From contig QHOV01000082.1 in NCBI GenBank assembly GCA_003218885.1, positions 1 through 40,361 on the forward strand: 40,361 bases of DNA, given 5' to 3'. The notes under the pieces were generated by a model. It worked only from the letters and a program-made list of their open reading frames with translations. It ran no database searches and was not told where the DNA came from. Positions 9,646 through 33,621 of the stretch are shown here, piece after piece (positions within the stretch are counted from its first letter, which is position 1; each line of letters opens with the position of its first letter). The position numbers and the translations under genes were made by a program. Origin of the DNA: Verrucomicrobiota bacterium. Lineage in GTDB: Bacteria; Verrucomicrobiota; Verrucomicrobiia; Chthoniobacterales; UBA10450.

Positions 9646-9680
9646 CAACTATCAGCTACCAACTAACGACTTTCGTCAAG
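9646..9680. repeat. 7-bp-phased tract (CAACTAT type)
   Basis: Five consecutive heptamers read CAACTAT, CAGCTAC, CAACTAA, CGACTTT, CGTCAAG. The phase is kept though the units diverge. It fills the 30-bp gap between the PHP start and the stop of the next minus-strand gene. Confidence 0.6.
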
Positions 9681-10206
9681 GCACAGCCAGGAATTTTTGC
9701 CGGATCCGCAACTCCGGGTATTGGGGAAAGAACACTTCGGCGATAAAGACCTTGTTCGGCGCGAGCTCGCGCGTCGAGATTGTTTCGCTGTACTCGATCC
9801 GCTCTTGCGGATTAACTAGAATCGTGGCGGGTTTGTCCGCGATGGCATGATTGTCGGACCACTTTGCCAGGATGTCGCCCGCGGAATTCGTCAGGTAAAT
9901 TTCAATCCGCTGGTTCGTCGGAAAGTCGAGCGCCACAGGACGCTTTGACAGATTTGCCAGCGTCACTTTGATTCCGAGCTGGCGAACCTCAGACAGCTTT
10001 ATGGTCTGCGGCGTGATTTGGAGATCGAGAGCGAGCCCGCGCAGCTTTGGATCTTTGTATTGCGGGACAACCTCTGGAGAGAACGGATGGAGAATGCGGC
10101 CCAACCAACCCCGTCTACGCGGCGTCGCCGTTGGCGCGGCGTCCTGGCCAAAGATGCCCCCGGCCATAAAAAGTATCAGAAGGAGCGAAACAATGCGGCG
10201 CTTCAT
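9676..10206 (-). CDS. Exported BsuPI-like (intracellular proteinase inhibitor-type) protein
   Basis: A 176-residue protein with a clear signal peptide (MKRRIVSLLLILFMAGGIFG, cleavage about residue 20) and a beta-sandwich-type remainder. The stretch LDFPTNQRIEIYLTNSAGDI, followed by KWSDNHAI and a late EYSETISTREL, fits the BsuPI / intracellular-proteinase-inhibitor fold, in which FxxxSGQxYDFxVxDxxGxxVWRWS is the marker. Inhibitory activity cannot be assumed; in many bacteria this domain is only a structural module. It lies just upstream of the PHP gene on the same strand and divergently from the exported protein at 10276. Confidence 0.6.
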   Translation of the reverse strand: MKRRIVSLLLILFMAGGIFGQDAAPTATPRRRGWLGRILHPFSPEVVPQYKDPKLRGLALDLQITPQTIKLSEVRQLGIKVTLANLSKRPVALDFPTNQRIEIYLTNSAGDILAKWSDNHAIADKPATILVNPQERIEYSETISTRELAPNKVFIAEVFFPQYPELRIRQKFLAVP

Positions 10207-10224
10207 GAGTGGGCTTAAACAGCC

Positions 10225-10238
10225 CCGAAAGTTTTCGG
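10225..10238. promoter_or_regulatory. 14-bp near-palindrome in divergent promoter gap
   Basis: CCGAAA-GT-TTTCGG lies in the 69-bp gap between the divergent genes 9676-10206 (-) and 10276 (+). The perfect 6-bp arms around a 2-bp centre are operator-like, but no regulator is known here. Confidence 0.25.
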
Positions 10239-10275
10239 AGTTGCAAAATTCCTGTCAAACCATTTATCAATCGGC

Positions 10276-10752
10276 ATGAAAATTCTCCGGCTATTTGCTC
10301 TTTGCCTGCTTTGGGCGCCGATAGTAGGCGTTGCGAAACAATCGCATTGCACTTTCCGAGTGCATGTCCAGGCGAATCCTCGAGACACCGAGGTTTTCGC
10401 CACATCGGTGCGCACCCAAGTTTCCGGTAAAGAGGTGGCAATCGAAAAGATGCCGTGGATTTCGGAGCGAGATGTCATGGCGTTTTCTCCTTACACAGCC
10501 AACGATGGAACCTATGGCGCGCTGCTTCAGCTCGATGATCATGGGCGCGTGGTGCTCGATACTTTGAGCGTTGAGCGCCGCGGCGGTTTCCTCTTTGTTT
10601 TCATCAATGGCCGATTCATTACCGAGCTCCAAATCGACAAGCGCGTTTCGGATGGAAGAATCTATATTCCTTCAGGCCTTACCGCAGCCGACATTAGCTT
10701 GATGAAAAAAGACTGGCGCTTGGTCGGCCAACGAAAACGTCAATCGCGTTGA
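10276..10752 (+). CDS. Exported protein of unknown function
   Basis: A 158-residue protein with a signal peptide (MKILRLFALCLLWAPIVGVA, cleavage about residue 20). I do not recognise a named family with confidence. The second half (YGALLQLDDHGRVVLDTLSV, then FINGRFITELQIDKRVSDGR and IYIPSGLTAADISLMKKDW) resembles the P1-type fold of SecD, where a VxVDGxxxSAPxIxxxI strand pair is followed by GGxxxIxGxFT. This is a resemblance of pattern only. It is 6 bp upstream of the M23 peptidase gene on the same strand, so the two are probably co-expressed and both act outside the cytoplasm. Confidence 0.7.
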   Translation: MKILRLFALCLLWAPIVGVAKQSHCTFRVHVQANPRDTEVFATSVRTQVSGKEVAIEKMPWISERDVMAFSPYTANDGTYGALLQLDDHGRVVLDTLSVERRGGFLFVFINGRFITELQIDKRVSDGRIYIPSGLTAADISLMKKDWRLVGQRKRQSR

Positions 10753-10758
10753 TCCACC

Positions 10759-11799
10759 ATGCGATTATTCGCTGCCGCAATTGTCCTCGCTATTTTTTCG
10801 TCAATCGCGATGAGGACTCAGAGTGCGCAGGATCACGCTCTCGATCTTGTTCTGCCTACGGATAATGACGCTCTGTTCTCGGGCGACGGTCCGGCCTTTT
10901 ACCAGTACGTGGAACGCAATTACAAAGGCATGAAATCGACGCCGTGGGAGGGCGGCAAATACGGCTTTGTGCGCGATCCCACCGACACACCGGGTGGTGT
11001 CGTTTACACGCGCTTTCACGAAGGAATCGATATTCGCTCCGTGCGTCGCGATGAAAACGGCGAGCCGCTCGATGAAGTCCGCGCCATTGCCGATGGGAAA
11101 GTCGCGCACGTTAATCTCGTGCCCGGCTACTCGAACTATGGGAAATACATTGTGATCGAGCACCGCTGGGACGGCTCCAGTTACTACAGCTTGTACGGAC
11201 ACCTGAGTTCCATCCGGGTGCACTCGGGCGATTCGGTCAAACGCGGCCAGCCTATCGCCGTCATGGGCTACACTGGAGTTGGGATAAACCGGGAACGGGC
11301 GCATCTCCATTTGGAATTGGATTTAATGTTCAGCCATCAATTCGAAGCGTGGCATGACGCATTGTTCAGAAATGACCCGAATCATAACGGCATTTATAAC
11401 GGCCTGAATCTTGCTGGGCTCGACATTGCGCGGCTCTATCTTGCGCTCCACCAGAATCCCTCGCTTACCATTCCTGAGTTTCTCAGCGGCGAAGAAACCT
11501 TCTACAAGGTGACCTTGCCCAAATCGCCCCATTTCGAATTGCCGAAGCTTTACTCCTGGATGCTGGCCGGAAACCGAAACCAGCAAGCTTCGTGGGAAGT
11601 CTCTTTTGCGCGTTCCGGTGTGCCGCTAAAACTAGAACCGAGCGACAAACACGTGACCCAGCCAGAGCTGAGTTACATCAAGAAAAGCTCGATTAATTAT
11701 TCGTCCTTGACCCGTGACATAGTCTCCGGTCACGGCGAAACCGCGCAGCTTACCGGTTACGGCAGGCAGTTAATGCGACTGCTTATTTATCCCGACTGA
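10759..11799 (+). CDS. M23-family metallopeptidase (LytM-type)
   Basis: A 346-residue exported protein whose signal peptide ends near residue 23. The M23 metal site is complete: HEGIDI (HxxxD) near residue 91, LYGHL near 151 and HLHLEL (HxH) near 180. The loops between (VIEHRWDG and GDSVKRGQPIAVMGYTGVG) match LytM domains. Active members are zinc endopeptidases that cut peptidoglycan cross-links. A C-terminal 120-residue extension without a recognised domain follows the catalytic part. No SH3 or LysM domain is seen. It follows the exported protein at 10276 by 6 bp and converges on the molybdopterin operon. Confidence 0.88.
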   Translation: MRLFAAAIVLAIFSSIAMRTQSAQDHALDLVLPTDNDALFSGDGPAFYQYVERNYKGMKSTPWEGGKYGFVRDPTDTPGGVVYTRFHEGIDIRSVRRDENGEPLDEVRAIADGKVAHVNLVPGYSNYGKYIVIEHRWDGSSYYSLYGHLSSIRVHSGDSVKRGQPIAVMGYTGVGINRERAHLHLELDLMFSHQFEAWHDALFRNDPNHNGIYNGLNLAGLDIARLYLALHQNPSLTIPEFLSGEETFYKVTLPKSPHFELPKLYSWMLAGNRNQQASWEVSFARSGVPLKLEPSDKHVTQPELSYIKKSSINYSSLTRDIVSGHGETAQLTGYGRQLMRLLIYPD

Positions 11800-11815
11800 C
11801 ATTTCGGTCGTTTCA

Positions 11816-12298
11816 TCAGCACGACGTCGGCGTCCCTTGCGCAAGCGCGACACCATGGGGAATTGCGCCTTGCACAAAGCTGAGACATTCCACTGCGCCG
11901 CTCGGTTTTCCCGGGAGCGCAATCACCAATGAGCCATCGACAATTGCGGCGAGGTTGCGGGACAAAATGGAATTGGGCGTGATCTTCATCGACTCCGCCC
12001 GCATCACTTCGCCGAAGCCCGGCAACTCAACGCGCATGATTGCGCGAATTGCTTCTGGGGTGACATCGCGCGGTCCGACACCAGTGCCGCCAGTGGTCAG
12101 AATCAAACCACAGCCTTGCTGAGAAAACGAGCGGATTGTTTCCTGAACGCGTTTTGCGTCGTCCGGCACAATCGCTTCCGCGAGTACCTGCCACCCCGCT
12201 TTTTGCGCCGCTCCTTTCAACGCGGGTCCGCCAAGATCCTTGTAGTCACCCGCGCTCGCGCGATCCGAGACCGTGATGATGCCAACTTGTATTTGCAT
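11816..12298 (-). CDS. mog: Molybdopterin adenylyltransferase / MoaB-Mog family protein
   Basis: A 160-residue MoaB/Mog-fold protein. The opening VGIITVSDRASAGDYKDLGG, the nucleotide-binding loop LTTGGTGVGPRDVTPEA (residues about 67-83) and the late ALPGKPSGAVECL are diagnostic. Mog adenylates molybdopterin before metal insertion; the length and context fit, but MoaB (often inactive) has the same motifs, so the exact activity is uncertain. It is the last gene of the minus-strand run moaA-moaC-mog, 16 bp after the moaC stop. Confidence 0.88.
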   Translation of the reverse strand: MQIQVGIITVSDRASAGDYKDLGGPALKGAAQKAGWQVLAEAIVPDDAKRVQETIRSFSQQGCGLILTTGGTGVGPRDVTPEAIRAIMRVELPGFGEVMRAESMKITPNSILSRNLAAIVDGSLVIALPGKPSGAVECLSFVQGAIPHGVALAQGTPTSC

Positions 12299-12314
12299 GT
12301 TTGTAACGGCGACT

Positions 12315-12809
12315 CTATTGGCGCCGTGATTTTTCGCTTCGGCGGTCGTAGACCGCCGCTACAGGGCGTTTTGTCTTTTCGATCAAACGCACATCGTAAA
12401 TGTGCATCTCTTTGTCCACGGCTTTGCACATATCGTAAATCGTAAGCAACGCGACAGTAACGCCAACGAGCGCTTCCATCTCGACTCCGGTCTGCGCAAC
12501 CGTTTTCGCGGCGCATTTGACCTCTGCGCCATCATTAGAAGCGACAATGTCGATCTTAACTTCACCGAGCGGCAGGGTGTGGCAAAGCGGTATGAGGTGC
12601 GCCGTTTGCTTTGCAGCCTGAATGCCGGCAATCCGCGCAGTGGCAAACACATTGCCTTTCGCGATTTGGTCCTTGGAAATTAGATCAAGTGTCTCGCGCC
12701 GGAGCCGAATCTTGCCGCGGGCGACAGCTCTTCGCTCACTCACGGGCTTGGCCGAAACATCGACCATCTGGGCGCAGCCATCGTCGCTGATGTGAGTGAG
12801 TCGCTGCAT
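12315..12809 (-). CDS. moaC: Cyclic pyranopterin monophosphate synthase MoaC, with repeat-derived tail
   Basis: MoaC turns the 3',8-cyclo-GTP made by MoaA into cyclic pyranopterin monophosphate. The family core is complete: MVDVSAKPVSERRAVARGKI, KGNVFATARIAGIQAAKQTA, HLIPLCHTLPL and GVEMEALVGVTVALLTIYDM. The conserved chain reaches IYDVRLIEKT near residue 145. The last 16 residues (PVAAVYDRRSEKSRRQ, 149-164) are encoded by a family A repeat (12341-12366) and the sequence next to it, and they replace the usual C-terminus. The start follows the moaA stop by 3 bp. The active site should be unaffected, as the tail lies after the conserved domain. Confidence 0.92.
   Translation of the reverse strand: MQRLTHISDDGCAQMVDVSAKPVSERRAVARGKIRLRRETLDLISKDQIAKGNVFATARIAGIQAAKQTAHLIPLCHTLPLGEVKIDIVASNDGAEVKCAAKTVAQTGVEMEALVGVTVALLTIYDMCKAVDKEMHIYDVRLIEKTKRPVAAVYDRRSEKSRRQ
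12341..12366 (-). repeat. Family A repeat, left half only, in moaC 3' end
   Basis: On the minus strand it reads CTGTAGCGGCGGTC-TAC-GACCGCCG: the outer CTGTAG end plus an 8-bp hairpin with a 3-nt loop. The right-hand hairpin of the full element is missing. It is read in frame as the last residues of MoaC. Confidence 0.8.
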
Positions 12810-12812
12810 TCG

Positions 12813-13814
12813 TTAGCCGCCGATAGCGATCATCTTGCGGTTCGGTTGGTAATTGTCGCGAAAATCGTGCTGAGCAGGTTTGCGTTCGACAACATCGAGA
12901 AAGAATTGCTTAAGGTCCTCATCACTCGCGCCGGCGCGCAGAGGTTTCATGATGTCGAACTCTAGATAGCTTCCCAGGCACGGACGCAATTTCCCATCGC
13001 AGGTGAGGCGAAGTTTGTTGCAGTTCTCGCAGAAATGCAGATTGGTCATCGCCCCGATAAAACCGATCCGCTGTTCGCGGCTGGGAACTTGATAGTAAGT
13101 CGCTGGCCCGTTTGTTCGAAATTCCGTCTCCGGGATCAGACTTCCGTAAACCGATTCGATTAACCGTTTCGCCTCGAACACCGACATGAAATTGTCTTCG
13201 CTGAGCACTTCGGTCGTGCTCACCGGCATCATCTCGATGAAACGCAGGATCAAATTGCGCGACGCGGCGAATTCGATCAGCGGGATCAATTGGTCCTCGT
13301 TTCGGCCGCGCATCAGGACGGTGTTCAATTTGATCTGATCGAAACCAACTGCGATTGCGGCATTAATCCCCTCGAGCACCTGAGCGTGCAAATCCCGACC
13401 CGTGATCTTGGAATACACATCTCGATCCAATGTATCGAGGGAGATGTTGACTGATTGGACACCGGCGTCGCGCAAGGTCATTGCCATTGTTTTGCTAGGT
13501 GTGATTTGGCGCGCAAGCAAAGTTCCATTCGTAGAGAGACCCAAACTCTTGATTCCAGAAATTGCCGGGATTTGGGCAATGAAGTGGACAACGTCCCGGC
13601 GCGTCAGCGGCTCGCCGCCGGTGACTCGCACTTTTGAAACGCCTAGTTCGGCTGCAATGCGAATAAGACACAGCGTTTCCTCGAACGTCAGAATTTCTTC
13701 ACGTGGCAACCACTCCTGCAATTCCTGCGGCATACAGTAGGTACAGCGTTCGTTGCAGCGGTCAGTAATCGAGACACGCAGGTAGGAAATCCGATGGCCG
13801 TAGCGATCCTGCAT
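12813..13814 (-). CDS. moaA: GTP 3',8-cyclase MoaA
   Basis: A radical-SAM enzyme that starts molybdenum cofactor synthesis from GTP. The SAM cluster motif CNERCTYC gives Cys20, Cys24 and Cys27. VRVTGGEPLTRRDVVHFI and GLSTNGTLLA follow, and the second iron-sulfur cluster is in FCENCNKLRLTCDGKLRPCL. The protein ends in the catalytic Gly-Gly tail (MIAIGG) needed for activity. At 333 residues it has the usual length. It is the first gene of moaA-moaC-mog; moaD/moaE/moeA are not in the window, so the operon is partial. It is divergent from the lipoprotein gene at 13890. Confidence 0.96.
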   Translation of the reverse strand: MQDRYGHRISYLRVSITDRCNERCTYCMPQELQEWLPREEILTFEETLCLIRIAAELGVSKVRVTGGEPLTRRDVVHFIAQIPAISGIKSLGLSTNGTLLARQITPSKTMAMTLRDAGVQSVNISLDTLDRDVYSKITGRDLHAQVLEGINAAIAVGFDQIKLNTVLMRGRNEDQLIPLIEFAASRNLILRFIEMMPVSTTEVLSEDNFMSVFEAKRLIESVYGSLIPETEFRTNGPATYYQVPSREQRIGFIGAMTNLHFCENCNKLRLTCDGKLRPCLGSYLEFDIMKPLRAGASDEDLKQFFLDVVERKPAQHDFRDNYQPNRKMIAIGG

Positions 13815-13889
13815 TGGAACGCAACTCTACCGGCGGACGATGTTGAATCAACAAAGCTGGAGATAATTGACGCGCTATAGGCAGCACAT

Positions 13890-14420
13890 ATGATCGTCAG
13901 CATGAAAGGTCGAATTCTTCCCAAAGCGCTGCCGCTTTGCCTCGCAGCCAGCGCATTGATTCTTGCGAGTTGCGAGACAACTCAGGACCGTATTTCCAAG
14001 CATCCCGAAATTTATCAACGCCTTTCGGCCAGTGATCAGGCGCTGGTAAGTCAAGGCCAAATCCGCGCAGGCATGTCTCAAAACGCGGTGTGGCTGGCCT
14101 GGGGCGGGCCCGAACGCAAGATCATAGGCAATATGCGCGGGCAACCGACCGAGACCTGGATTTATATAACCTACGAAACTGCTCCATACCCCTATGGCGG
14201 GCCGTACGGGCCGTGGGGGTGGGGTTACGGCTTCGGCCCCAGTGTGGCCTTTGTCCGGACACACCATCACGGGCACTCGTTTGTCTTTTGGGGCAGCCCC
14301 TTCTACGATCCGTTCTATTATGCTTACATTCCGCCGAGTATTCCTGTTCCGTATAAGACCGTCACATTCGCCAATGGGCGCGTAGTGTCATTCCAATACA
14401 TGGAACGCCGGTATGGCTAA
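13890..14420 (+). CDS. Predicted lipoprotein with SmpA/BamE-like core
   Basis: A 176-residue protein whose signal peptide ends in the lipobox ALILASC. Either ATG 13890 or ATG 13902 may initiate; the second gives the cleaner signal peptide MKGRILPKALPLCLAAS. The part IRAGMSQNAVWLAWGGPERK, followed by ETWIY, is the SmpA/OmlA (BamE-like) pattern in which IxxGMxxxxVxxxxGxP precedes an aromatic strand. The middle is Gly/Pro/Tyr-rich (YPYGGPYGPWGWGYGFGP) and the end has VVSFQYMERRYG. An envelope-linked role is likely; a true Bam function is not shown. It is divergent from moaA. Confidence 0.7.
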   Translation: MIVSMKGRILPKALPLCLAASALILASCETTQDRISKHPEIYQRLSASDQALVSQGQIRAGMSQNAVWLAWGGPERKIIGNMRGQPTETWIYITYETAPYPYGGPYGPWGWGYGFGPSVAFVRTHHHGHSFVFWGSPFYDPFYYAYIPPSIPVPYKTVTFANGRVVSFQYMERRYG

Positions 14421-14480
14421 GCAACATTTCTCTCACTTTTCTCCACGCAATTGAGCAGAATCGATTGCGGCGCCTGAGCA

Positions 14481-15950
14481 ATGGCTTACCGCTCGTTTAC
14501 AAGTTTCCTCGCCGCTCTCGAAAAAGTGGGCGAGTTGAAACGCATCACGGTCCCCGTCGATACCGATTTGCTCATAGCAGAATGGGCGGACCGCGAGATG
14601 AAATCGCCCGGCGGCGGAAAGGCGCTGCTGTTTGAGCAACCGGTTGTCGATGGAAAAAAATCCCCGTTCCCGGTTGCGATTAATACCATGGGTTCGCACC
14701 GGCGCATGGCTCTCGCGTTACAGGTAGCGGATGTCGCGGATATCGCACAGGAAATTCAACTTATTCTCAAAGCAAAACCACCAACCAATCTGCGCGAAGG
14801 TTGGAGTTTGCTTAAACAAGGAATTCATCTGCTGCACGCGCGTCCGAAGCAAGTGAAGGAAGCGCCTTGCCAGGAAATTGTGCACCGGATCGGCAACGAA
14901 GGTGACTTTTCATTGAGCGATCTGCCCATTCTCAAATGTTGGCCGAAGGATGGTGGCCGCTTCATTACATTAGCGAATGTGCATACCCGTGACCCGGAGA
15001 CAGGTGCGCGAAACGTGGGGATTTACCGGATGCAAGTTTATGACGAGTGCACGACCGGAATGCACTGGCAACTCCACAAGGTCGGTGCGCGCCATGGCAA
15101 GCGCTATTACGAGCGCGGTGAGCGCATGCCAGTGGCAGTTACGCTGGGCGGTGATCCCGTTTATACATTCGCTGCTACCGCGCCGTTGCCGGACGGTTTG
15201 GATGAACTGTTTTTCGCTGGGTTTTTGCGAAAGAGATCAATCGAGCTTGTTCGCTGCAAAACGATCGATCTCGACGTACCGGCGGACGTAGATTTTGTCC
15301 TGGAAGGCTATGTGCAGCCCGGTGAGATGCGTCCCGAAGGTCCCTTTGGAGATCACACCGGCTTCTATACTGCGGTTGAGGATTATCCAGTTTTTCATGT
15401 GACCGCCATCACGCATCGACGCGATGCAGTTTATCCGACAACGATCGTGGGCAGGCCTCCGATGGAAGACTATTACATCGGCGACGCCTGTGTGCGCATT
15501 TTGCTGCCGGTATTCAAGATGAATTTTCCAGAAATTGTTGACATGACGCTGCCGCCGGAAGGCGTTTTCCATAACCTGGTGTTCGTCAGTATTCGAAAGC
15601 AATATCCGTATCAGGCCTTCAAGGTCATGCACGGTCTCTGGGGCATGGGCCAGATGATGTTCAGCAAATATATCGTGGCCGTGGATGAAGATTGCGATGT
15701 CCACAACACCAGCGAAGTGCTTTTCCGATTGTGCGCGAACACTGACCCCGCTCGCGACACGACCGTAATCAAAAATCCAAGTGACTCGCTCGATCACGCA
15801 CCGAGCGATCAAAACATCGGCTCCCACATGGGCCTCGACGCGACGCGCAAATTGCCGGGTGAAAACTATCACCGCCCGTGGCCGGAGCTTTTGAAGATGA
15901 CCAAGGAGGCTAAAGCGCTCGTCGACGAATTACAGAAGAAGGCGCGTTGA
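14481..15950 (+). CDS. UbiD-family prenylated-FMN decarboxylase
   Basis: A 489-residue member of the UbiD family, which uses prenylated FMN to decarboxylate aromatic or alpha,beta-unsaturated acids. It opens SFTSFLAALEKVGELKRITV. The flavin/metal region NVGIYRMQVYDECTTGMHWQ near residue 180, the catalytic loop PEGPFGDHTGFYTAVEDYP near 285 and TTIVGRPPMEDYYIGDA near 325 are present. The loop carries EGPFGD, with Asp where Fdc-type enzymes have Glu, as in E. coli UbiD. No UbiX (flavin prenyltransferase) gene is in the window. A role in quinone synthesis together with ubiE is plausible; the substrate cannot be told from sequence. Confidence 0.85.
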   Translation: MAYRSFTSFLAALEKVGELKRITVPVDTDLLIAEWADREMKSPGGGKALLFEQPVVDGKKSPFPVAINTMGSHRRMALALQVADVADIAQEIQLILKAKPPTNLREGWSLLKQGIHLLHARPKQVKEAPCQEIVHRIGNEGDFSLSDLPILKCWPKDGGRFITLANVHTRDPETGARNVGIYRMQVYDECTTGMHWQLHKVGARHGKRYYERGERMPVAVTLGGDPVYTFAATAPLPDGLDELFFAGFLRKRSIELVRCKTIDLDVPADVDFVLEGYVQPGEMRPEGPFGDHTGFYTAVEDYPVFHVTAITHRRDAVYPTTIVGRPPMEDYYIGDACVRILLPVFKMNFPEIVDMTLPPEGVFHNLVFVSIRKQYPYQAFKVMHGLWGMGQMMFSKYIVAVDEDCDVHNTSEVLFRLCANTDPARDTTVIKNPSDSLDHAPSDQNIGSHMGLDATRKLPGENYHRPWPELLKMTKEAKALVDELQKKAR

Positions 15951-15962
15951 TCTCGCGCGTCG

Positions 15963-16034: not shown

Positions 16035-16043
16035 CCTCATTTG

Positions 16044-16433: not shown

Positions 16434-16491
16434 AAGTTTACGCTCGTTGACGGATTGAACTGCGCAATCTCGAGAATGTTGCAGGTCAGGC

Positions 16492-19555: not shown

Positions 19556-19590
19556 AATGACGAATGACGCATGAATGACGAAATGCGTCC
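19556..19590. repeat. 7-bp-phased tract (AATGACG type)
   Basis: AAATGAC, GAATGAC, GCATGAA, TGACGAA, ATGCGTC follow one another in register between lepA and lepB. A family C half-copy comes a few bases later. Confidence 0.5.
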
Positions 19591-19602
19591 TCCAGCCCAT
19601 TG

Positions 19603-19635
19603 TCATTCCGAGCGAAGCACAGTCGAGGAATCTCT
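19603..19635. repeat. Family C repeat, left half
   Basis: GTCATTCCGAGCGAAG, then CACAGTCGAGGAATCTC, matches the left end of the full copy at 3648 except for a short insertion. It lies next to a heptamer tract, in the lepA-lepB gap. Confidence 0.7.
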
Positions 19636-19646
19636 CATTGCAAGAG

Positions 19647-21868: not shown

Positions 21869-22585
21869 ATGCAATCCGCAATCCGCAATCGGCAATCTGC
21901 AATTGCCAGGCGCCTTCTGCTTTTTGATATCGATGGCACGTTGATCCATTCCGGGGGCGCGGGAGTTCAAGCGCTCAAATCCGCCTTCAAAGAGCGCTTC
22001 GGTATCGCGGATGATCTGCACGACATTGAAATCGCCGGCATGACCGATTCAGGCATCATCGTCAGCATCCTGAACAAGCATAAAATTCCCGCAACCAATG
22101 AAAACGTGAGCGCGTTTCTGGACAGTTATGTGCATTTTTTATCGCTGGAATTGCCGCGCCGTAAAGGCAAACTCCTCCCCGGCGTGCTCAAGCTGCTCGA
22201 AAAGCTCAAGTCGCGGTCACATCTGGTGCTCGCCCTTCTCACTGGAAATGTCTCCCGCGGAGCGCGATTAAAGCTCGAGCACTACGGCGTCTGGCACTTT
22301 TTCGAATTTGGCGCTTTTGCCGATGATCATCGGGATCGCAACCAGCTCGGGCGTTTCGCTCGCGCGCGCGCAAAAGAGAAGCATGGGCGCGAGTTCGCTG
22401 CATCGGAGATCGACGTCATTGGCGATACGCCGCGCGATATTGCCTGTGGCAAAGCGCTAGGGGCGCGAACTATTGCGGTGGCAACCGGCAGATGGAGCCG
22501 TGATGAACTTGCGAAATATCAGCCGGATTTTTTGATTGATGATCTCTCAGATGTGGAAACCATTATCGATACGCTCGGATGGTGA
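21869..22585 (+). CDS. HAD-family phosphatase (phosphoglycolate-phosphatase-like)
   Basis: A haloacid dehalogenase superfamily hydrolase. Motif I is LLLFDIDGTL with the nucleophile Asp and acid/base Asp two residues on; ALLTGN gives motif II (Thr), the Lys is in the next helix (SRGARLKLEHYG), and DVIGDTPRDIACGKALGA supplies motif IV acidic residues. The layout matches Gph/PGPase-type subclass IA enzymes. Start choice is unusual: no other initiator lies close before motif I, and ATG 21869 sits at the edge of the repeat, so the first residues (MQSAIRNRQSAIARR) are encoded by the 7-bp-phased tract. It is followed 23 bp later by the STAS gene. The natural substrate is unknown. Confidence 0.85.
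   Translation: MQSAIRNRQSAIARRLLLFDIDGTLIHSGGAGVQALKSAFKERFGIADDLHDIEIAGMTDSGIIVSILNKHKIPATNENVSAFLDSYVHFLSLELPRRKGKLLPGVLKLLEKLKSRSHLVLALLTGNVSRGARLKLEHYGVWHFFEFGAFADDHRDRNQLGRFARARAKEKHGREFAASEIDVIGDTPRDIACGKALGARTIAVATGRWSRDELAKYQPDFLIDDLSDVETIIDTLGW
21871..21905. repeat. 7-bp-phased tract (GCAATCC type), five units
   Basis: GCAATCC, GCAATCC, GCAATCG, GCAATCT, GCAATTG in perfect register, starting five bases after a family A repeat and encoding the N-terminus of the HAD protein. This is the cleanest of the heptamer tracts. Confidence 0.9.
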
Positions 22586-25536: not shown

Positions 25537-25545
25537 TCAGAAGCC

Positions 25546-26972: not shown

Positions 26973-26982
26973 TACCCGGGTC

Positions 26983-28371
26983 ATGCAGATGGCTTTGACT
27001 AGCGTCGGTAGCGACGTTTTTAAACAACCGATCACCATTGTTGGCGCGATCAGTGTGCTCCTCCTGATGGATTGGAAATTTACCGCAGTCACGATGATTC
27101 TTTTTCCAACCTGTTTGCTGCCGCTTCGTATTTATGGGCGTCGCGCCCGCAAGGCAGTGCAAAATGAACAAGCAGGCATGGGCGAAATGGTCGTGACGAT
27201 GCAGGAAACATTCGCTGGCATTCGCGTGATCAAGTCGTTTGCGCGTGAAGCGCACCAGGAAAAGGAATTCAAGCGCAGCAATCAACTACAGTTTTCGCAG
27301 ATGATGCGCATGATCCGGTCGATGGAAGCAGTCGGCCCGCTGGTTGAAACCATCGCCGCAGTCGGTGTGGGAATGGCGTTGCTTTACGTTTACGCCGCGA
27401 ACCTGAGCGTCGGCCGATTTTTCGGATTGATCTCAGGAATTTTCATTCTCTACGACCCGATCAAGACGCTTAGCAGGATTCACATCCTGATGGAGCGATC
27501 AATCGCGGCTACTGGTGCGATTTTCTCGATTCTGGACTCAGAGTCCACGGTGCAGGACACGCCGAACGCCGCGGTCCTCAAGTCTTCCCAAGGCCGAATT
27601 GATTTTGAAAATGTCACGTTCCGCTATGCAAACACCGCTGCAGATGCTATCAGCAATCTGACCTTGCGTTTCGAACCGGGGAAAACTCATGCCCTAGTCG
27701 GCGCCAGCGGTGCGGGCAAAAGCACGATTCTCTCACTGATCCTGCGCCTATACGATCCGACCACTGGCGCTGTGAAAATCGATTGCGAAGATCTGCGCTC
27801 GGTGACACAAAAGTCCTTGCGCGGACAGATTGGGCTCGTCACGCAGGAGACGTTTTTGTTTCACGATACCATCTTCAATAACATCCTGTTCGGCCGGCTG
27901 GACGCTACACCAGAGGAAATTTACGAAGCCGCACGCGCTGCCTATGCCCACGACTTCATTACGGCCCAGCCAAAAGGTTATCAAACAGTCATTGGCGACA
28001 AAGGATGTCTTCTCTCCGGCGGACAGCAGCAACGCCTCGCCATCGCGCGCGCTATTCTGAAAAACGCGCCGATTCTTTTGCTGGATGAAGCCACTTCATC
28101 GCTCGATTCCGAATCGGAACAGCAAATTCAACAGGCTCTGGCTGAACTGGCCGCTGGACGCACGGTAATCGCGATCGCCCACCGTCTCTCCACCATTCTA
28201 TCCGCCAATCAAATTATTGTGATGGATTGCGGCCGAGTTAAGGAGATCGGGACGCATGCCGAGCTGCTCGAAAAATCTGGCTACTATCGCCGGTTATACG
28301 ATCACCAATTCAATCGTATTCAGAAGGAACCCGAAGCCGAAGCAGGCATTCTTGTTGAAGAGCTCGTGTAG
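26983..28371 (+). CDS. msbA: MsbA-type ABC exporter, C-terminal part, displaced frame
   Basis: A 462-codon frame carrying TM3-TM6 and a full nucleotide-binding domain. The frame is open before the ATG: SNDTRV precedes MQMALTSVGSDV, as in intact homologues. ATPase motifs are complete: Walker A GASGAGKST near 248, Q-loop VTQETFLFHD, signature LSGGQQQRLAIARAI, Walker B ILLLDEATSSLD and the H-loop IAHRLST. The missing link to the fragment at 26565 removes the first coupling-helix region, so neither half should be a working flippase alone. It would otherwise move lipid A-core across the inner membrane, in keeping with the flanking glycosyltransferases. Confidence 0.85.
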   Translation: MQMALTSVGSDVFKQPITIVGAISVLLLMDWKFTAVTMILFPTCLLPLRIYGRRARKAVQNEQAGMGEMVVTMQETFAGIRVIKSFAREAHQEKEFKRSNQLQFSQMMRMIRSMEAVGPLVETIAAVGVGMALLYVYAANLSVGRFFGLISGIFILYDPIKTLSRIHILMERSIAATGAIFSILDSESTVQDTPNAAVLKSSQGRIDFENVTFRYANTAADAISNLTLRFEPGKTHALVGASGAGKSTILSLILRLYDPTTGAVKIDCEDLRSVTQKSLRGQIGLVTQETFLFHDTIFNNILFGRLDATPEEIYEAARAAYAHDFITAQPKGYQTVIGDKGCLLSGGQQQRLAIARAILKNAPILLLDEATSSLDSESEQQIQQALAELAAGRTVIAIAHRLSTILSANQIIVMDCGRVKEIGTHAELLEKSGYYRRLYDHQFNRIQKEPEAEAGILVEELV

Positions 28372-28404
28372 CGATTTGGAAAGGAATGGCCATAGCCTCT
28401 CGCG

Positions 28405-29133
28405 ATGCCATTTAATATCGACCTCCACACGCATTCTTTTTTTTCCGGAGACGGTATTTCTAGTCCGGAAGACTTGATTGCAGCCGCGCGCGCCAAAGGT
28501 TTGAACGGCATCGCCATCACCGATCATAACACGTGCGACGCGGTTAATTACCTGCTCGAGAAAGGCCTGATGCGGCTGGACGGGTTGCCGGTCAACGATT
28601 TTCTCGTTCTTCCGGGAGTCGAGGTCACGACCGCCGATGGTCATCTTCTCTGTATCGGTGCGGAGCTGCCCTACCTGAAAGGAAAACCAGCGCGCGAAGT
28701 CTGCGACATCATTCATGAACGCGGCGGCCTCGCCATTCCTCCGCATCCATATGATTTGTTCCGCGCCGGCATCCGTTTTTCCACTCTGGAAACGCTGCCG
28801 GTGGATGCGATCGAGGTTTTCAACGCTGCGACCACACTCCGCCGCTACAACCGTTACGCTTTCAAGTACGCGCAGATTCGCGGTTTGCCCATGACTGCTG
28901 CCAGCGACGCGCATCATGCCGCCGCCGTTGGGACGGCTTACACAATCGTGAACACCGATGATTTTTCGGTGAAAGGAATTCTCGCGCAGATCCTAAAGAG
29001 CAACGAGCTGAATCAAAAATACCAGACCCCGCGGGATAGCCTCCGCAAAACCTGGAACAACTGGTTGCGATTGCGGCGCCGAAAAAAAAATCCCGACCTA
29101 GCTGCGAAAGACCGTGGCCACAACGGCCGCTGA
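28405..29133 (+). CDS. PHP-domain phosphoesterase
   Basis: A 242-residue PHP-superfamily metal-dependent hydrolase. Metal motifs are IDLHTHSFFSGDG at residues 5-17, AITDHNTCD near 37, PGVEVTTADGHLLCIG near 71, PPHPYDLFR near 113 and SDAHHAAAVGTAYT near 170. This order is typical of YciV/RNase AM-type and related phosphoesterases. The substrate is unknown. It lies 33 bp after the msbA remnant on the same strand. The last 20 residues (WLRLRRRKKNPDLAAKDRGH) are basic and lie beyond the domain; the DNA there merges into a 7-bp-phased tract, so the tail may be of recent origin. Confidence 0.85.
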   Translation: MPFNIDLHTHSFFSGDGISSPEDLIAAARAKGLNGIAITDHNTCDAVNYLLEKGLMRLDGLPVNDFLVLPGVEVTTADGHLLCIGAELPYLKGKPAREVCDIIHERGGLAIPPHPYDLFRAGIRFSTLETLPVDAIEVFNAATTLRRYNRYAFKYAQIRGLPMTAASDAHHAAAVGTAYTIVNTDDFSVKGILAQILKSNELNQKYQTPRDSLRKTWNNWLRLRRRKKNPDLAAKDRGHNGR

Positions 29134-29157
29134 CCACTGATGCAGACCACTAACCAC
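29130..29157. repeat. 7-bp-phased tract (CTGACCA type)
   Basis: CTGACCA, CTGATGC, AGACCAC, TAACCAC in register, directly joined to the left end of a family B repeat (29158). The first units overlap the stop codon of the PHP gene. Confidence 0.6.
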
Positions 29158-29191
29158 CCTGTCCGCCGTAGCCTTGGCGAAGGCGGATGAC
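29158..29191. repeat. Family B 34-bp repeat
   Basis: The element contains TCCGCC (29162-29167) and GGCGGA (29182-29187) around a 14-bp centre GTAGCCTTGGCGAA. It is identical over 34 bp to 31491-31524. Its right end lies 11 bp before the DUF1330 start. Confidence 0.92.
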
Positions 29192-29202
29192 TTCTAGTGC
29201 GA

Positions 29203-29490
29203 ATGCCCGCTTACGTCATCGTTGAAATCGACATTGTCGATCCAGCCGGCTACGAAGAATACAAAAAGCTCGCCAGCGCGACCGTGGAGAAGTACGGCGG
29301 CAAATACGTGGTTCGCGGCGGCAGAACCGAAGTACTCGAAGGCCATTGGAAACCGAAGCGCATCGTGGTGCTTCAATTCGAATCAGCGCAGCGTGCCAAA
29401 GACTGGCTGAATTGCGAAGAATATCGCGAACCGCGCAAAATGCGGCACCGCACGGCGAGGACAAACATGATCCTGGTCGAGGGGATGTAA
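29203..29490 (+). CDS. DUF1330 family protein
   Basis: A 95-residue ferredoxin-like-fold protein of the DUF1330 family. It starts PAYVIVEIDIVDPAGYEEYK and contains KYVVRGGRTEVLEGHW, RIVVLQFESAQRAKDWLNCE and a late NMILVEGM, all close to the family pattern. The biochemical role of the family is unknown. ATG 29203 is chosen over GTG 29197. It sits directly behind a family B repeat, which may carry or block its promoter, and before a family A variant. Confidence 0.92.
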   Translation: MPAYVIVEIDIVDPAGYEEYKKLASATVEKYGGKYVVRGGRTEVLEGHWKPKRIVVLQFESAQRAKDWLNCEEYREPRKMRHRTARTNMILVEGM

Positions 29491-29506
29491 GTGTCGGCTG
29501 CACGCG

Positions 29507-29585
29507 CTGTAGCCACGGCCCTGTGGGCCGTCGCGCTGTGTGAAAAGTAGCACCGAGATGGACCGGCCACAGGCCGGTGGCTACA
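29507..29585. repeat. Family A variant with exchanged stem sequences
   Basis: ACGGCCC-TGT-GGGCCGT and ACCGGCC-ACA-GGCCGGT are two perfect 7-bp hairpins inside the outer arms TGTAGCCAC/GTGGCTACA. The stems differ from the other copies but the plan and loops are the same. The right end supplies the TAG stop of the GT2 gene on the minus strand (29581-29583). Confidence 0.85.
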
Positions 29586-30486
29586 ACTTTACGAAATCGC
29601 GCTGGCCGGTACCAGGCCGCTTTTTCATTTCACGCTCCTTCAGCAGGATCGTGCGCTCATACCAAGCGAGCAGCCGGCAGAACACCCATCCACGGTAGCC
29701 GTCACGAAAACCCTGCTTCCAGACGTAATGATAAAGGAATCGCAAGCTCGGACGGAACGGAGCTCTCGCCGTGAGTTTCTTTAGCCAGCGCTTGCGCTCT
29801 ACCGCCGTTCCCAAAGGTGATGCTCGCAATGTCTTTTCACCTGCTCGCTCATGCAGCTTTCCGGACGCCGCCGCTTCCCAGGTCGAATAGCGGTTATGTT
29901 TCTCGACGAAGGTGGCAATATCTGGAAAAGCGTAATGCTCCATCGGAGCGGTCAAATATTCCGCCCCCCCATTTAGCAATACGTGCTCATGCACCTCGTT
30001 ATCTCCAGAGACAAGGTTGTCGTCGATTTCGATCTGTTCATATCGACCCAGCCGATGCCGGAACAGGCGCAGATTCCAACTCGGAAAATAACCGCAATGG
30101 TTTATCCAGCCGCTCAAAAACCAGAACCGACGGTTCAGATAAAATCCGTCCACGTCAGTGCGGCGAATCGCCTCTTTGACTTCGCGTTCTAACTCGGGTG
30201 TGACGCGTTCGTCGGCATCCACGATGAGCACCCATTCATTTTGCCAGGGAATATTTTCCAAAGCCCAGTTCTTCTTTCGTGGGAAATTTCCATTCCAAAC
30301 GAACTGCACGACGCGGGCTCCGGTCGCCTCGGCAATCGCTTGCGTTCCATCTGTGCTCGCCGAATCAACTACCACGATTTCTTCTGCGAACGAAACGCTG
30401 GCAAGGCAGTCCCGCAGGTTCGCCGCTTCATTCTTGACCGGGACAAGCACCGACAAGGGCACCCGCGCGTCGGCTTGCTCGCTCAT
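29581..30486 (-). CDS. GT2 glycosyltransferase, WaaE/LgtF-like
   Basis: A 301-residue GT-A glycosyltransferase. PLSVLVPVKNEAANLRDCLA opens it, EEIVVVDSASTDGTQAIAEA follows, and LIVDADERVTPELEREV carries the DxD metal motif. The late block WINHCGYFPSWNLRLFRH and ERAGEKTLRAS resemble WaaE/LgtF-type lipopolysaccharide core beta-glucosyltransferases. ATG 30486 overlaps the WcaF-like stop by 4 bp (ATGA type), so the two are coupled. It is the last gene of a four-gene minus-strand run beginning at 33621. Its stop codon lies in a family A repeat. Confidence 0.88.
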   Translation of the reverse strand: MSEQADARVPLSVLVPVKNEAANLRDCLASVSFAEEIVVVDSASTDGTQAIAEATGARVVQFVWNGNFPRKKNWALENIPWQNEWVLIVDADERVTPELEREVKEAIRRTDVDGFYLNRRFWFLSGWINHCGYFPSWNLRLFRHRLGRYEQIEIDDNLVSGDNEVHEHVLLNGGAEYLTAPMEHYAFPDIATFVEKHNRYSTWEAAASGKLHERAGEKTLRASPLGTAVERKRWLKKLTARAPFRPSLRFLYHYVWKQGFRDGYRGWVFCRLLAWYERTILLKEREMKKRPGTGQRDFVKL

Positions 30487-31028
30487 TGAATAATCTCGCG
30501 TTTTTTCGCTTCGCGCGCTGGGTTTCCAATCACAATGCTCCAAGGTTTCACGTCCCTCATCGCTACCGCCCTTGCACCAACAATCGCTCCTTCACCGATT
30601 GTAACGCCCGGCCCCACGAACGCATCCGCACAAATCCAAGCGTCGGAGCCGATCGTAATCGGCGGACGCTGCAACGGAAAATCCGCTTTGGTGTGATCGT
30701 GAGTTCCTGCGCAGACATGCGCGCGGTGTGAAATCGTTACACGCGCCCCCAGCGTCACGCGGCCGAGATTGTAAATAAACGCATGCTCCCCGATGGCGCT
30801 TTCATCTCCCGCGTCGAGATTCCATGGGAAATAAATCGTCGCCGAAGGATACACATGAAGGTTGCGACCAATTTTTGCTCCGAAACAGCGGAGCACAAAT
30901 CGCCTCCAGCCGAAACACGGCCTGGGACTGAACCGAAAAAGTGGCTGGGCGCAAGCCCACAACACGCGGCGGATAATCTCGCCCGATGAGTACTTCCTGG
31001 CCCGACGATTTTGTTCAATGTCCAGCAT
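30483..31028 (-). CDS. WcaF-like hexapeptide-repeat acyltransferase
   Basis: A 181-residue left-handed beta-helix acyltransferase. Hexapeptide repeats ([LIV]-G-x4) are visible in IGRNLHVYPSATIYFPWNLD and TIGSDAWICADAFVGPGVTI, with GEGAIVGARAVAMRDV at the end. Catalytic His is likely in the CAGTHDHTKADF loop. It fits the putative colanic-acid acetyltransferase WcaF group, which O-acetylates sugars of exopolysaccharide or O-antigen. It lies 9 bp after the GT4 gene and overlaps the GT2 gene. The donor is presumably acetyl-CoA; the sugar is unknown. Confidence 0.9.
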   Translation of the reverse strand: MLDIEQNRRARKYSSGEIIRRVLWACAQPLFRFSPRPCFGWRRFVLRCFGAKIGRNLHVYPSATIYFPWNLDAGDESAIGEHAFIYNLGRVTLGARVTISHRAHVCAGTHDHTKADFPLQRPPITIGSDAWICADAFVGPGVTIGEGAIVGARAVAMRDVKPWSIVIGNPAREAKKREIIQ

Positions 31029-31033
31029 GCTTC

Positions 31034-31075
31034 CTCTTCAAACTCCTATTTCCGACTCCTGCCTCTCATATCTGA
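31034..31075. repeat. 7-bp-phased tract at GT4 3' end
   Basis: CTCTTCA, AACTCCT, ATTTCCG, ACTCCTG, CCTCTCA, TATCTGA in register. On the minus strand they encode the last residues of the GT4 protein (ERQESEIGV) and its stop codon. Confidence 0.7.
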
Positions 31076-32330
31076 TCGCATCCGGCGTTGGCCCCCCGCC
31101 GAGCACCCATTCATAAACCGAGCGCATCTGTTCGCCAATTCGAGGCCATGAAAATCTTGTCGCCACCAGAGTGCGTCCACGAATACCCATTGCTCTGCGA
31201 TCGTCATCACTCATTTCTATGAGTTGTTTTAAGCCAGTGGCAATTTCCTCGGGGCTCGTTCCAATTTGTAACGCTGCTCCGGCAGTGAAGCCTTCGAGCA
31301 GATTACACTCGGATGTCATCAACACCGGCTTCGCGTACGCCCATGCTTCCAGCACCGTCATCGGAAGACCTTCACTCAATGATGGCAGGATGAATCCGTC
31401 GCAAGCGCGATAACAGTCGCTTTTGTCCGTGCCGAATCGGGACCCAAGAAAAGCCACAGAAGGCGAACCTGATGACTGAGCGTTGACCTCCCTGTCCGCC
31501 GTAGCCTTGGCGAAGGCGGATGACCTCTGACTGCTGACGTCTAAAACTGAAAGCCCGAGATTATCTGCCAGATGCTTGAGCTTCTCTTCATATCCGCCCT
31601 GGGACCAACCGGCGATAGCTAGGACCCACGGAGCGTTGGTCGAAGGATGCGAGTTGAGTGTTTGTTTCCAGACGCGAATAAGATTCCCCAAATTTTTCTT
31701 TGGATGCAGTCTGCCCAGATAAAGCAAAATTTTTCGGCCTTGGGCAAATGTTCGAAATACTGGACTCTCAGTTTTCAACGCTGAACTCTCAACCAGCTCA
31801 GGCAAATCAATTCCATTGGGAATTACGCAAATCGGGTTGCGCATTCCGTAGGAACGGATCGACCGCGCTTCTGCTTCGCACAGTGCACGCAGGCATGGCG
31901 CGCCGCGCAAATGTCGATCCTCATAAAGCAGCGCGGCGATTCGTTTTTTCCACATCGCATTTCGCAGCGCCCATGAGTCCAGCATACCCTCCGGGTGCAC
32001 GATGTAAGGCCGGCCCGTCCGCCGATGCCATTGTCGCGAGGCAACGGAGCAGTATTTCCACAAACCGTGTGTGGACAAAATATCGAGATCAGCGGCAAGC
32101 AGCGCCGGCACCAATTTATTGGAGTAGCCCCATGGGCGTAACTGCGGTCGATACGTGCAAACAGAAAGAGGCCGCCACTTTAGCAAATCGAATGTGCTAT
32201 TTGGATCGCTGATCCCAAACACGCTCGCGGTCGTATTTGTGGACGTCACTGCTTTGGCAAGTCCGCGCACGCTCTGAAACAAGCCGCCTGCTTCGCGCGA
32301 AACGCTGCTGACCAGAAAACCGACTTTCAT
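31038..32330 (-). CDS. GT4 glycosyltransferase carrying repeat-derived inserts
   Basis: A 430-residue GT-B glycosyltransferase. LLYLGRLHPKKNLGNLIRVW near 200 and DGFILPSLSEGLPMTVLEAW near 315 (E-x7-E motif) define the donor domain; FLVSSVSREAGGLFQSVRGL is the N-terminal acceptor loop. Three parts are encoded by repeats: ESSALKTESPV near 178-191, SSAFAKATADREVNAQSSG near 262-285 (a family B element with heptamer flanks) and the tail ERQESEIGV. All keep the frame. The second insert falls between the strand LSVLDV and SVAFLG, at a surface loop of this fold, so activity may survive. It is in the minus-strand run of four glycan genes. Confidence 0.88.
   Translation of the reverse strand: MKVGFLVSSVSREAGGLFQSVRGLAKAVTSTNTTASVFGISDPNSTFDLLKWRPLSVCTYRPQLRPWGYSNKLVPALLAADLDILSTHGLWKYCSVASRQWHRRTGRPYIVHPEGMLDSWALRNAMWKKRIAALLYEDRHLRGAPCLRALCEAEARSIRSYGMRNPICVIPNGIDLPELVESSALKTESPVFRTFAQGRKILLYLGRLHPKKNLGNLIRVWKQTLNSHPSTNAPWVLAIAGWSQGGYEEKLKHLADNLGLSVLDVSSQRSSAFAKATADREVNAQSSGSPSVAFLGSRFGTDKSDCYRACDGFILPSLSEGLPMTVLEAWAYAKPVLMTSECNLLEGFTAGAALQIGTSPEEIATGLKQLIEMSDDDRRAMGIRGRTLVATRFSWPRIGEQMRSVYEWVLGGGPTPDAIRYERQESEIGV
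31469..31553. repeat. Composite repeat inside GT4 gene: heptamers + family B + heptamers
   Basis: CTGATGA, CTGAGCG, TTGACCT lead into the 34-bp family B copy (31491-31524), which leads into GATGACC, TCTGACT, GCTGACG, TCTAAAA, CTGAAAG. The family B part is identical to the intergenic copy at 29158. The composite is in frame on the minus strand. Confidence 0.88.
31758..31799. repeat. 7-bp-phased tract (CTCTCAA type) inside GT4 gene
   Basis: TACTGGA, CTCTCAG, TTTTCAA, CGCTGAA, CTCTCAA, CCAGCTC in register; read in the GT4 frame as ELVESSALKTESPV. It lies in the linker before the donor domain. Confidence 0.65.
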
Positions 32331-32403
32331 GTGCTTAGAAGTGGCAGAGGCTGCCAGCGCTCAGTCACATCGTTCATTGATCTGTGCGTGGACGCACGCT
32401 TTC

Positions 32404-33621
32404 CTAGAGGGGCAATTTTATCAATGTGCGGCCGAGCAGCGAGACTTTTCGTGGATGGGTGAGCGCCAGTTTCGCGGCTTGCTCCAAACCTTCGCCGAAA
32501 TGCTCCGGCGCAAAATTCTCTGCGACTCTATAGCTCGCATCTCCGAGGTTCCTTCGTTCGTAGTCCGACAACGAAGCTATCTGTAACAGGCGCGACGGCA
32601 ATTCGCGCTCATCGATTGGATCAAAAGTAAACCCGTTGCCTCGCACAAGTTCCGGCACACAGCCGCATCGCTCCGACACAATCACCGGCAGTCCAGACGC
32701 GACGGCTTCATTCACAACCAGACCCCATTGCTCAGTCGTGCTGGCATGCACGAACGCCTTCGCTAAGGCATAGTAAACCGGCAACTCGTCGTACTGTTTG
32801 AAGCCGGGAAGATGCACGTTGGCGTGCAACCGGGGATCAGAAATCAGACGACAGAGATCAGCCTTGAGCGGCCCGTCACCGAGGATCACGAGATCCCACG
32901 GCGCGTTCTCCTTGCCGACGTCCGAACTCTGACGTCCGACCTCAGACCTCTGTCGATATTCCGCGTAAGCCCTGATGAGCCCGGGCAGATTCTTCTTCTC
33001 GATGAACCGCGCCGAAGCAACAAAGTAATTCTCCGGCAAGCCATACTGTTTTCTGACCTCTGACTTCCGACCTCTGGCCTCTTCCGCCCTTCGGCGGAAA
33101 TAGGCGTTATCGACTACATCGTATCCGGTAAAGATGCGGTCACGAAGCATCCCAAGCTCAACCAGATATTCAACGTGACGCTGACCGCCTACCAGCGCAG
33201 CTGAGTAAAGACCGACGACCCGTCGCTTGATCATTTCCTTCCACCAGGTGCGAGGTTCGTCCTGGCGCGCGCTCTCTGACATTAGGACCATGGGTATTCC
33301 CTGGCGCACACAACAATTCGCGGCAGCCAATGATCCGAAATCGTTCCAGCCGTTGACCGCCACTACATCGGGGTTCGCCTGCTCCAACGCAGACCAAAAC
33401 GCTCGCCGAAGTTGGGCCTTCGCCAGGTATTGGTCTGTTGCTTCAGAAAAGAGAGAAACTTTTTGATAATGCGCAGGCGCCTCCGCTGCGCCCCATGGCT
33501 CATCTCCTTTGGCTGACCATTCAATACCAGTTACCGACAATCTATCGGCCGCCGCATTCAGCCGCGCATGGTGATAAGGACCAATGTGATGAAAAACAAC
33601 AGCGATAGCAGGCTTATTCAT
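32404..33621 (-). CDS. GT4 glycosyltransferase with two heptamer-derived inserts
   Basis: A 405-residue GT-B glycosyltransferase. The parts FVASARFIEKKNLPGLIRAY near 198 and AFVHASTTEQWGLVVNEAVA near 285 (E-x7-E-type donor site) with ERCGCVPELVRGNGFTFDP are typical. Two short Arg/Ser/Glu-rich stretches, RRAEEARGRKSEVRKQYG near 175-192 and RQRSEVGRQSSDVGKENAP near 220-238, coincide exactly with 7-bp-phased DNA. Both keep the frame and sit in loops. This is the first gene of the minus-strand glycan run (GT4, GT4, WcaF-like, GT2). The substrate is unknown. Confidence 0.9.
   Translation of the reverse strand: MNKPAIAVVFHHIGPYHHARLNAAADRLSVTGIEWSAKGDEPWGAAEAPAHYQKVSLFSEATDQYLAKAQLRRAFWSALEQANPDVVAVNGWNDFGSLAAANCCVRQGIPMVLMSESARQDEPRTWWKEMIKRRVVGLYSAALVGGQRHVEYLVELGMLRDRIFTGYDVVDNAYFRRRAEEARGRKSEVRKQYGLPENYFVASARFIEKKNLPGLIRAYAEYRQRSEVGRQSSDVGKENAPWDLVILGDGPLKADLCRLISDPRLHANVHLPGFKQYDELPVYYALAKAFVHASTTEQWGLVVNEAVASGLPVIVSERCGCVPELVRGNGFTFDPIDERELPSRLLQIASLSDYERRNLGDASYRVAENFAPEHFGEGLEQAAKLALTHPRKVSLLGRTLIKLPL
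32914..32955. repeat. 7-bp-phased tract (TCYGACS type), six units, in GT4 gene
   Basis: GCCGACG, TCCGAAC, TCTGACG, TCCGACC, TCAGACC, TCTGTCG in exact register; encodes QRSEVGRQSSDVG on the minus strand. 42 bp is two 21-bp periods, which keeps the frame. Confidence 0.88.
33052..33099. repeat. 7-bp-phased tract plus hairpin in GT4 gene
   Basis: TCTGACC, TCTGACT, TCCGACC, TCTGGCC, TCTTCCG, then the perfect hairpin TTCCGCC-CTTC-GGCGGAA (33082-33099). The hairpin arms resemble those of family B (TCCGCC/GGCGGA). Confidence 0.85.

Follow-up and report, generated by a model that had tools for sequence, protein, structure and literature searches.

Heptanucleotide tandem arrays with changing units at fixed sites in a Chthoniobacterales genome and its relatives

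The window analysed here, the whole of contig C91 (40361 bases), comes from a 2.3 Mb metagenome-assembled genome of the Chthoniobacterales (Verrucomicrobiota) in 217 contigs, 82% complete; the order is read from its best named lepA matches, which are Spartobacteria/Chthoniobacterales records at 75-79% identity. The window carries short tracts with a seven-base period, and those between 31034 and 33086 lie in or at two minus-strand open reading frames (ORFs) for glycosyltransferases, GT1 (31038-32330) and GT2 (32404-33621). A preliminary description had listed nine tracts in the window as runs of four to six heptamers in exact register, with a unit specific to each locus and the period as the shared feature. 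Considering these tracts together with sequences from relatives, we find that the phenomenon is real and moderately surprising and belongs to a general kind of repeat that is already known; its distinctive feature is the switching of the unit at fixed sites, in one gene at fixed length. The arrays are about four to five units long, and are spread through the genus and part of the family and order; most lie in spacers, and some occupy stretches of genes that tolerate them.

Periodicity was scored at lag 7 (match +1, mismatch -1.5) and each tract was compared with six second-order Markov copies of the window. The features are as follows, HP1 being a short hairpin taken up further below.

21871..21903, plus strand: GCAATCC array, 4.7 units long, close to the 5' end of a HAD-hydrolase ORF; lag-7 score 21.0, Tandem Repeats Finder score 52
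33052..33082, minus strand: array within the glycosyltransferase gene at GT2 site B, sense unit GGTCAGA; score 11.5
32915..32950, minus strand: TCTGACC-type array at GT2 site A, located in a loop where a helix ends and varying in length among relatives; score 9.0, lag-14 score 12.5
32835..32861, minus strand: weak tract of TCTGATC-like sequence at GT2 site C; window score 6.0
31469..31553, minus strand: TGACCTC-type array in GT1, interrupted by HP1; score 6.0 as it stands, 13.0 with HP1 removed
31491..31520, no strand: HP1, a 30-bp hairpin insertion equal to 10 codons, within the 31469 array
29158..29187, no strand: another HP1 copy with the identical sequence, next to the unproven tract at 29130
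31758..31799, minus strand: weak CTCTCAA-like tract in GT1; score 5.0, by itself not above chance
31034..31075, minus strand: weak tract at the 3' end of GT1; score 3.5, by itself not above chance
19556..19590, plus strand: AATGACG array in the spacer between signal-peptidase and lepA ORFs; score 9.5, borderline
9646..9680, plus strand: CAACTAT-like tract between ORFs; score 8.5, borderline, window alone

All nine stretches of the preliminary description exist, but four to six heptamers in exact register are found at 21871-21903 alone. Two of the nine, at 21871 and 33052 (21.0 and 11.5), beat every control segment; three are borderline, namely 19556 (9.5), 32914 (9.0) and 9646 (8.5), each expected 0.3-0.5 times per 40 kb; and the remaining four, at 31469 (6.0), 29130 (5.0), 31758 (5.0) and 31034 (3.5), are not above chance as written. 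Removal of the HP1 copy at 29158-29187 lifts the 29130 tract only to 6.5. The 21871 array is also present in the closest relative, G032, with a score of 11.0, and units of its AATCCGC class occur at two further loci of that genome (L258 and L273). At 31758, with both flanks mapped, relatives hold strong arrays of CTGAATC (G021, 16.0) or GTTGAGA (G038, 15.0), and at or beside 31034 strong arrays of other units are found in G032 (17.5), G001 (15.0 and 11.0) and G024 (11.5), each mapped by one flank only. The 31469-31553 stretch is an in-frame extra segment that is absent or different in most aligned relatives except G032. The spacer at 19556 differs in G032, whose sequence there scores 7.5 at lag 7.

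Strong arrays, defined by a lag score of at least 12, were counted in 37 stretches of the window's own genome (G000; 331 kb, about 9.7 kb of that N) and in an 883-kb sample of the genus, drawn partly from contigs selected for HP1 matches. The own genome holds 12 such arrays at lag 7, against 0 in first- and second-order Markov controls, with 10 at lag 6, 2 at lag 8, 3 at lag 10 and 0 at each of lags 4, 5, 11 and 13. The genus sample holds 26 at lag 7, and 0, 1, 18, 9, 4, 5, 0, 6 and 0 at lags 4, 5, 6, 8, 9, 10, 11, 12 and 13. Head-to-tail 7-nt repeats, the defining trait of heptanucleotide simple sequence repeats (SSRs), are therefore above chance and above lags 4, 5 and 8-13. The bulk autocorrelation proposed earlier as a check gave no excess at lag 7 in the window (0.2443, with 0.2467 at lag 5 and 0.2435 at lag 8), nor in sampled noncoding DNA, for which both sets are imperfect, one ORF mask being too wide and the other's gene calls for G000 and G006 being spoilt by N stretches or failed training. 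As bulk autocorrelation is flat while array counts are high, the excess at lag 7 is carried by discrete arrays. Octamer arrays of the AAGTTAAA/TTTAACGA type are also present in the own genome (L002:18150-18207, L032:622-655 and 701-723), and lag 8 is the next commonest non-triplet lag in the genus sample.

In small samples, array density per 100 kb ranges over 0-7.3 in five congeners, 0-10 in five genomes of the family and 0-5 in six of the order; it is 0 in 93 kb of lepA loci of named Verrucomicrobia, and the 468 kb surrounding lepA in other bacteria give 0.2. Thirteen of the 20 stretches from G032 lie on contigs chosen from the list of HP1 matches, and HP1 or GT1/GT2 guided the choice of other loci, which means that HP1 copy counts and array lengths are not random samples; with that qualification, median array length is 32 bp and four whole units are found in 26 of 58 arrays.

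The units do not behave as locus-specific, as had been proposed, but form a limited repertoire common to many loci. Identical units were found in 4.3% of pairs among 54 arrays from the genus and the family and order samples, compared with 0.07% for random heptamers drawn from the same DNA, and in 3.2% when one array per 3 kb was kept (48 arrays). Recurrent units include AATGACG (8 arrays), AACGCCC (6), AACGTCC (5) and AATCCGC (2), the last being the class of the array at 21871. ATTCGAA arrays were matched in 24 of 35 genus genomes (105 pattern matches against 6 for the reversed pattern, overlaps counted); within the same search the pattern was unmatched in G000 and G032. For TCTCAAC, an 18-mer array pattern is present in 34 of 288 genomes of the phylum, and here the reversed control is worthless because the reverse of this unit is a rotation of itself. 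The same 18-mer gives 114 matches in G213 and 47 in G202, both of the same class, against 1 in the window's genome. The idea that the TCTCAAC unit is common to other phyla was dropped, since none of the 40 genomes accessed by way of their lepA loci contained the 18-mer (at most 1 mismatch), a set that includes five Verrucomicrobiota and two Lentisphaerae.

By a home-made, retrained gene caller and with N-only stretches excluded, 43 of 56 arrays lie outside called genes in DNA with a noncoding fraction of 0.19, a preference for noncoding sequence of the kind seen in heptanucleotide SSRs. An inverted partner array within 250 bp is frequent (13 of 54 arrays with inverted partners only, 2 with direct only, 6 with both), and seven inverted pairs that were folded gave long stems. 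Inverted AACGYYC-type pairs in spacers fold into long stems, some with A/T runs at their ends (L180:10199-10293, L032:12941-13022, L178:17973-18058). A role of spacer arrays as terminators between converging genes was considered and rejected: none of the 37 arrays with genes called on both sides lies in such a spacer, though these spacers make up 15% of spacer bases. Small palindromes beside arrays are likewise no rule, the tendency being weak (stems of at least 5 bp at 29% of 97 arrays, 18% at random sites).

The claim that the period is the shared feature was supported, unlike that of locus-specific units, since several orthologous sites keep their position and 7-bp period while the unit differs between relatives. 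The window was compared with 14 stretches of 13 relatives selected for GT1 orthologs, counting arrays that scored at least 9. The relatives hold 32 such arrays, of which 29 could be mapped onto the window; five short sites within or next to GT1 and GT2 account for 24 of the 29. GT2 was then aligned across 16 genomes (G000, 14 congeners and G038 of another genus; the partial matches G002 and G031 were left out). Site B carries a GTCAGAA-type sequence in seven genomes, an ATTCGAA-type sequence in seven and no array in two (G022 and G012), with a lag-7 score of at least 11 in 10 of the 16; it is 69 bp long in 13, and the other three hold a 30-bp or 12-bp hairpin insert. Site C is 78 bp long in 15 of 15, nine of them with TCTCAAC arrays (12.5-31) and six with TCTGATC-like sequence. 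The sister genomes G028 and G011 differ in class at both sites. Between the near twins G022 and G012, 5% apart, three substitutions turn the next seven bases into one more TCTCAAC unit at constant length, and G022 is probably the derived form, because other genomes share the non-array form there. Phase variation through a switch of frame or promoter spacing is not indicated for GT2, as sites B and C are constant in length or change by 12 or 30 bp, and no stops are present in the listed frames of 15 genus loci.

Different units at the same place in different species are not explained by copying stutter by itself. The explanation that we favour, and hold with about half confidence, is that the tracts are degenerate heptanucleotide tandem arrays produced by 7-nt misaligned copying together with short-patch replacement between arrays, HP1 being an independent insertion. 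Arrays would arise and grow through misaligned copying with a 7-nt step. Existing arrays would then act as short exchangeable blocks, short-patch recombination or template switching putting a different array from the repertoire in place of the sequence at a site; such block replacement would give a fixed site and a fixed period with a changing unit. Within genes, only in-frame or length-neutral events would survive.

A simpler alternative, which we consider possible but doubtful, is that these are ordinary heptanucleotide microsatellites, where slippage on chance seeds, guided by the bacterial preference for 7 nt, is followed by decay without exchange, and differing units reflect independent births at permissive places. 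The intergenic bias fits this, and in the passages of PMC4679880 and PMC4692102 drawn on here and below, heptamers are reported to rank first among long repeats in many bacteria, 7 nt having been proposed in a 2007 survey as the length contacted by the polymerase. Independent births do not readily account for units common to different loci, for the repeated return of arrays to the same GT1 and GT2 sites, for the constant length within the gene or for the lack of an excess of 7-bp indels between G000 and G032.

The in-gene arrays could also be convergent at the protein level, if heptad peptides work in helices and are selected there. In an AlphaFold2 model of GT2 (14-sequence alignment, mean predicted local distance difference test score 74), sites B and C lie on helices and site A at a helix end, the latter with low confidence, and the peptides of the two site B classes share an E-[VI]-R spacing. 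We regard selection of this kind as an improbable cause of the arrays, most of which lie outside called genes with similar units, and G022 and G012 keep the site B helix without an array. Under the favoured combination of misaligned copying and block replacement, the 7-nt period may instead be tolerated in genes because, when read on a stop-free strand, it gives the peptide a period of 7 residues, which suits a helix.

How local the switches are was examined in GT2 by taking between-class minus within-class distance in 21-bp bins with 200 permutations. A class signal was found in three bins at site B (about 65-80 bp) and in two at site C (42 bp; third bin +0.04), and it stays within 0.05 of zero across nearly all other GT2, apart from one sparse insert-column bin of -0.30 in the site C scan. 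Just before the array at site B, distance is 0.57 between and 0.26 within classes, and the two are equal at both flanks. On a GT2 tree built without the array sites (partial G034 and G003 left out), parsimony gives four to five changes at site B, five being the figure with the no-array state counted, four at site C and three for HP1 at site A.

These results bear on a further alternative, in which species exchange longer segments of the gene by ordinary homologous recombination, old alleles are thereby reassorted and the arrays travel as passengers. Divergence between G000 and G032 along GT2 is patchy, reaching 36-43% in the region of sites A to C and 0-8% downstream of it, and the different classes of the sisters G028 and G011 at B and C would also fit. 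We nevertheless think this explanation unlikely to be the right one, as class linkage does not extend beyond about 42-80 bp and the existence of two period-7 alleles at one site is left unexplained.

Several observations weigh against short-patch replacement among arrays as favoured above. The classes are defined by the arrays themselves, so that only the fall of the signal outside the arrays is informative. Support for the GT2 tree is moderate, with 5 of 11 inner branches open, and the well-supported branches force only two changes at site B; shuffled labels were as clustered as the real ones in 42 of 200 trials on this tree. The TCTGATC class at site C is weak (scores 4-8). At site C the difference between G000 and G032 is part of a block some 200 bp long, and the two also differ by 13-33% in the first part of the gene; this block together with the patchily diverged 5' part makes a longer recombination possible there. 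Gaps of 7 bp are 1 of 84 between these two closest genomes in 53 kb, a comparison of few arrays and two genomes, and no switch was caught in progress among the genomes compared. Strong lag-6 arrays are also abundant (18 against 26 at lag 7 in the genus, 10 against 12 in the own genome). The preliminary description had named a missing lag-7 excess, or tracts equally common at other lags, as grounds for giving up its claim, and part of this was found, bulk lag 7 being flat and lag-6 arrays being not much rarer than those at lag 7.

A bolder version may be put forward tentatively, as a rather unlikely one: Chthoniobacterales may actively rewrite recurring sites, some 40-80 bp at a time, by drawing on a genome-wide repertoire of period-7 arrays, often length-neutrally and in genes as well as spacers, by short-patch, period-locked gene conversion or template switching.

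The hairpin HP1 appears to be a separate 30-bp insertion, independent of the arrays and presumably mobile, that would land in arrays as well as elsewhere. It is present in 34 of 35 genus genomes with at most 3 mismatches, against 0 for the reversed control. As a dispersed palindrome of 20-40 bp it falls within the size range of repetitive extragenic palindromic (REP) elements, and 50 distinct copies occur in the sampled sequence. Eleven of the 50 lie inside lag-7 arrays, where removing 30 bp (six copies) or 37 bp (five copies), both equal to 2 modulo 7, restores the register in 11 of 11; these are not all independent, as at least the window and L164 copies are orthologous. Lag-7 sequence flanks 8 of 50 copies and 14 of 500 random sites, the figures for lag 8 being 4 of 50 and 5 of 500. 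In the part of PMC3733652 that concerns them, REP and rickettsial palindromic elements resemble HP1 in being short dispersed hairpins, some of which sit in frame within genes or lie nested in other palindromes, and GTAG REPs inside ORFs are reported for the verrucomicrobium O. terrae. HP1 differs from REPs in that CYTG precedes the hairpin in the 30-bp copies, the terminal GTAG/CGTC tag is lacking (GTAG is internal) and no HP1, at up to 7 mismatches, was found beside Y1 transposase genes at the six Y1 loci examined.

The earlier suggestion of a polymerase or mobile element behind the period found no support: none was detected (reverse transcriptases were not searched for), and HP1, the sole mobile-looking element, has no heptamer period of its own, though it lies inside some arrays. 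A dedicated enzyme that writes the period, whether a templated polymerase, a reverse transcriptase or a transposase with a 7-nt register, would suit the narrow range of array lengths noted above, and Y1 transposase matches are present in 33 of 35 genus genomes. The own genome, however, has a single Y1 match with an E-value of 1.5e-5, lag-7 arrays scoring at least 9 occur at two of the six Y1 loci, and neither a template nor a linked enzyme was found, which leaves such an enzyme very improbable.

Bacterial heptamer repeats are already known, those of cyanobacteria being named short tandemly repeated repetitive (STRR) sequences, and the preference of many bacteria for seven-letter repeats is a long-standing question. 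The GGGNATC heptanucleotide SSRs of Xanthomonas and Nostoc (PMC4692102) resemble the present arrays in their 7-nt unit, about four units and intergenic bias, and in that length and sequence vary between relatives at the same intergenic places. The arrays described here differ in having several unit classes per genome, in being degenerate with most units not G-rich, and in that one class takes the place of another at an orthologous site, within genes too. TAACTGA direct repeats of Beggiatoaceae, Cyanobacteria and Bacteroidetes (PMC4679880) likewise form short heptamer arrays, some inside ORFs; they are described with one favoured unit just upstream of start codons, whereas here a repertoire is found mostly in spacers of tandem genes. 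Searches of an open-licence library turned up no account of heptamer-unit switching or of heptamer repeats in this lineage, subscription papers and preprints being outside the search. Orthologous sites with a changing word, a fixed period and usually a fixed length are natural experiments for separating slippage, recombination and selection, and they also suggest that, in a soil lineage, a low-information repeat code can spell out parts of enzyme helices.

Some further observations concern hairpins and the rest of the window. A second palindromic element (GTCATTCCGAGCGA...GAGGAATCTCTC) at 19602-19636 adjoins the AATGACG array; 33 bp of this region are absent from the G032 alignment, and the HP1 copy in L235 interrupts a palindrome of this kind. 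A 12-bp hairpin insert (TCCGCCTCAGGCGGA context) lies inside the site B ATTCGAA arrays of G026 and G024 (L279 and L280) and represents a third hairpin type. At GT2 site A in L279 there is an apparent hairpin within a hairpin, the HP1-like copy of G026 being interrupted by further hairpin sequence. An Rfam search of the window returned one transfer RNA and nothing else. A 1067-residue ORF on the minus strand (35127-38330) matches Sortilin-Vps10 and BNR repeats.

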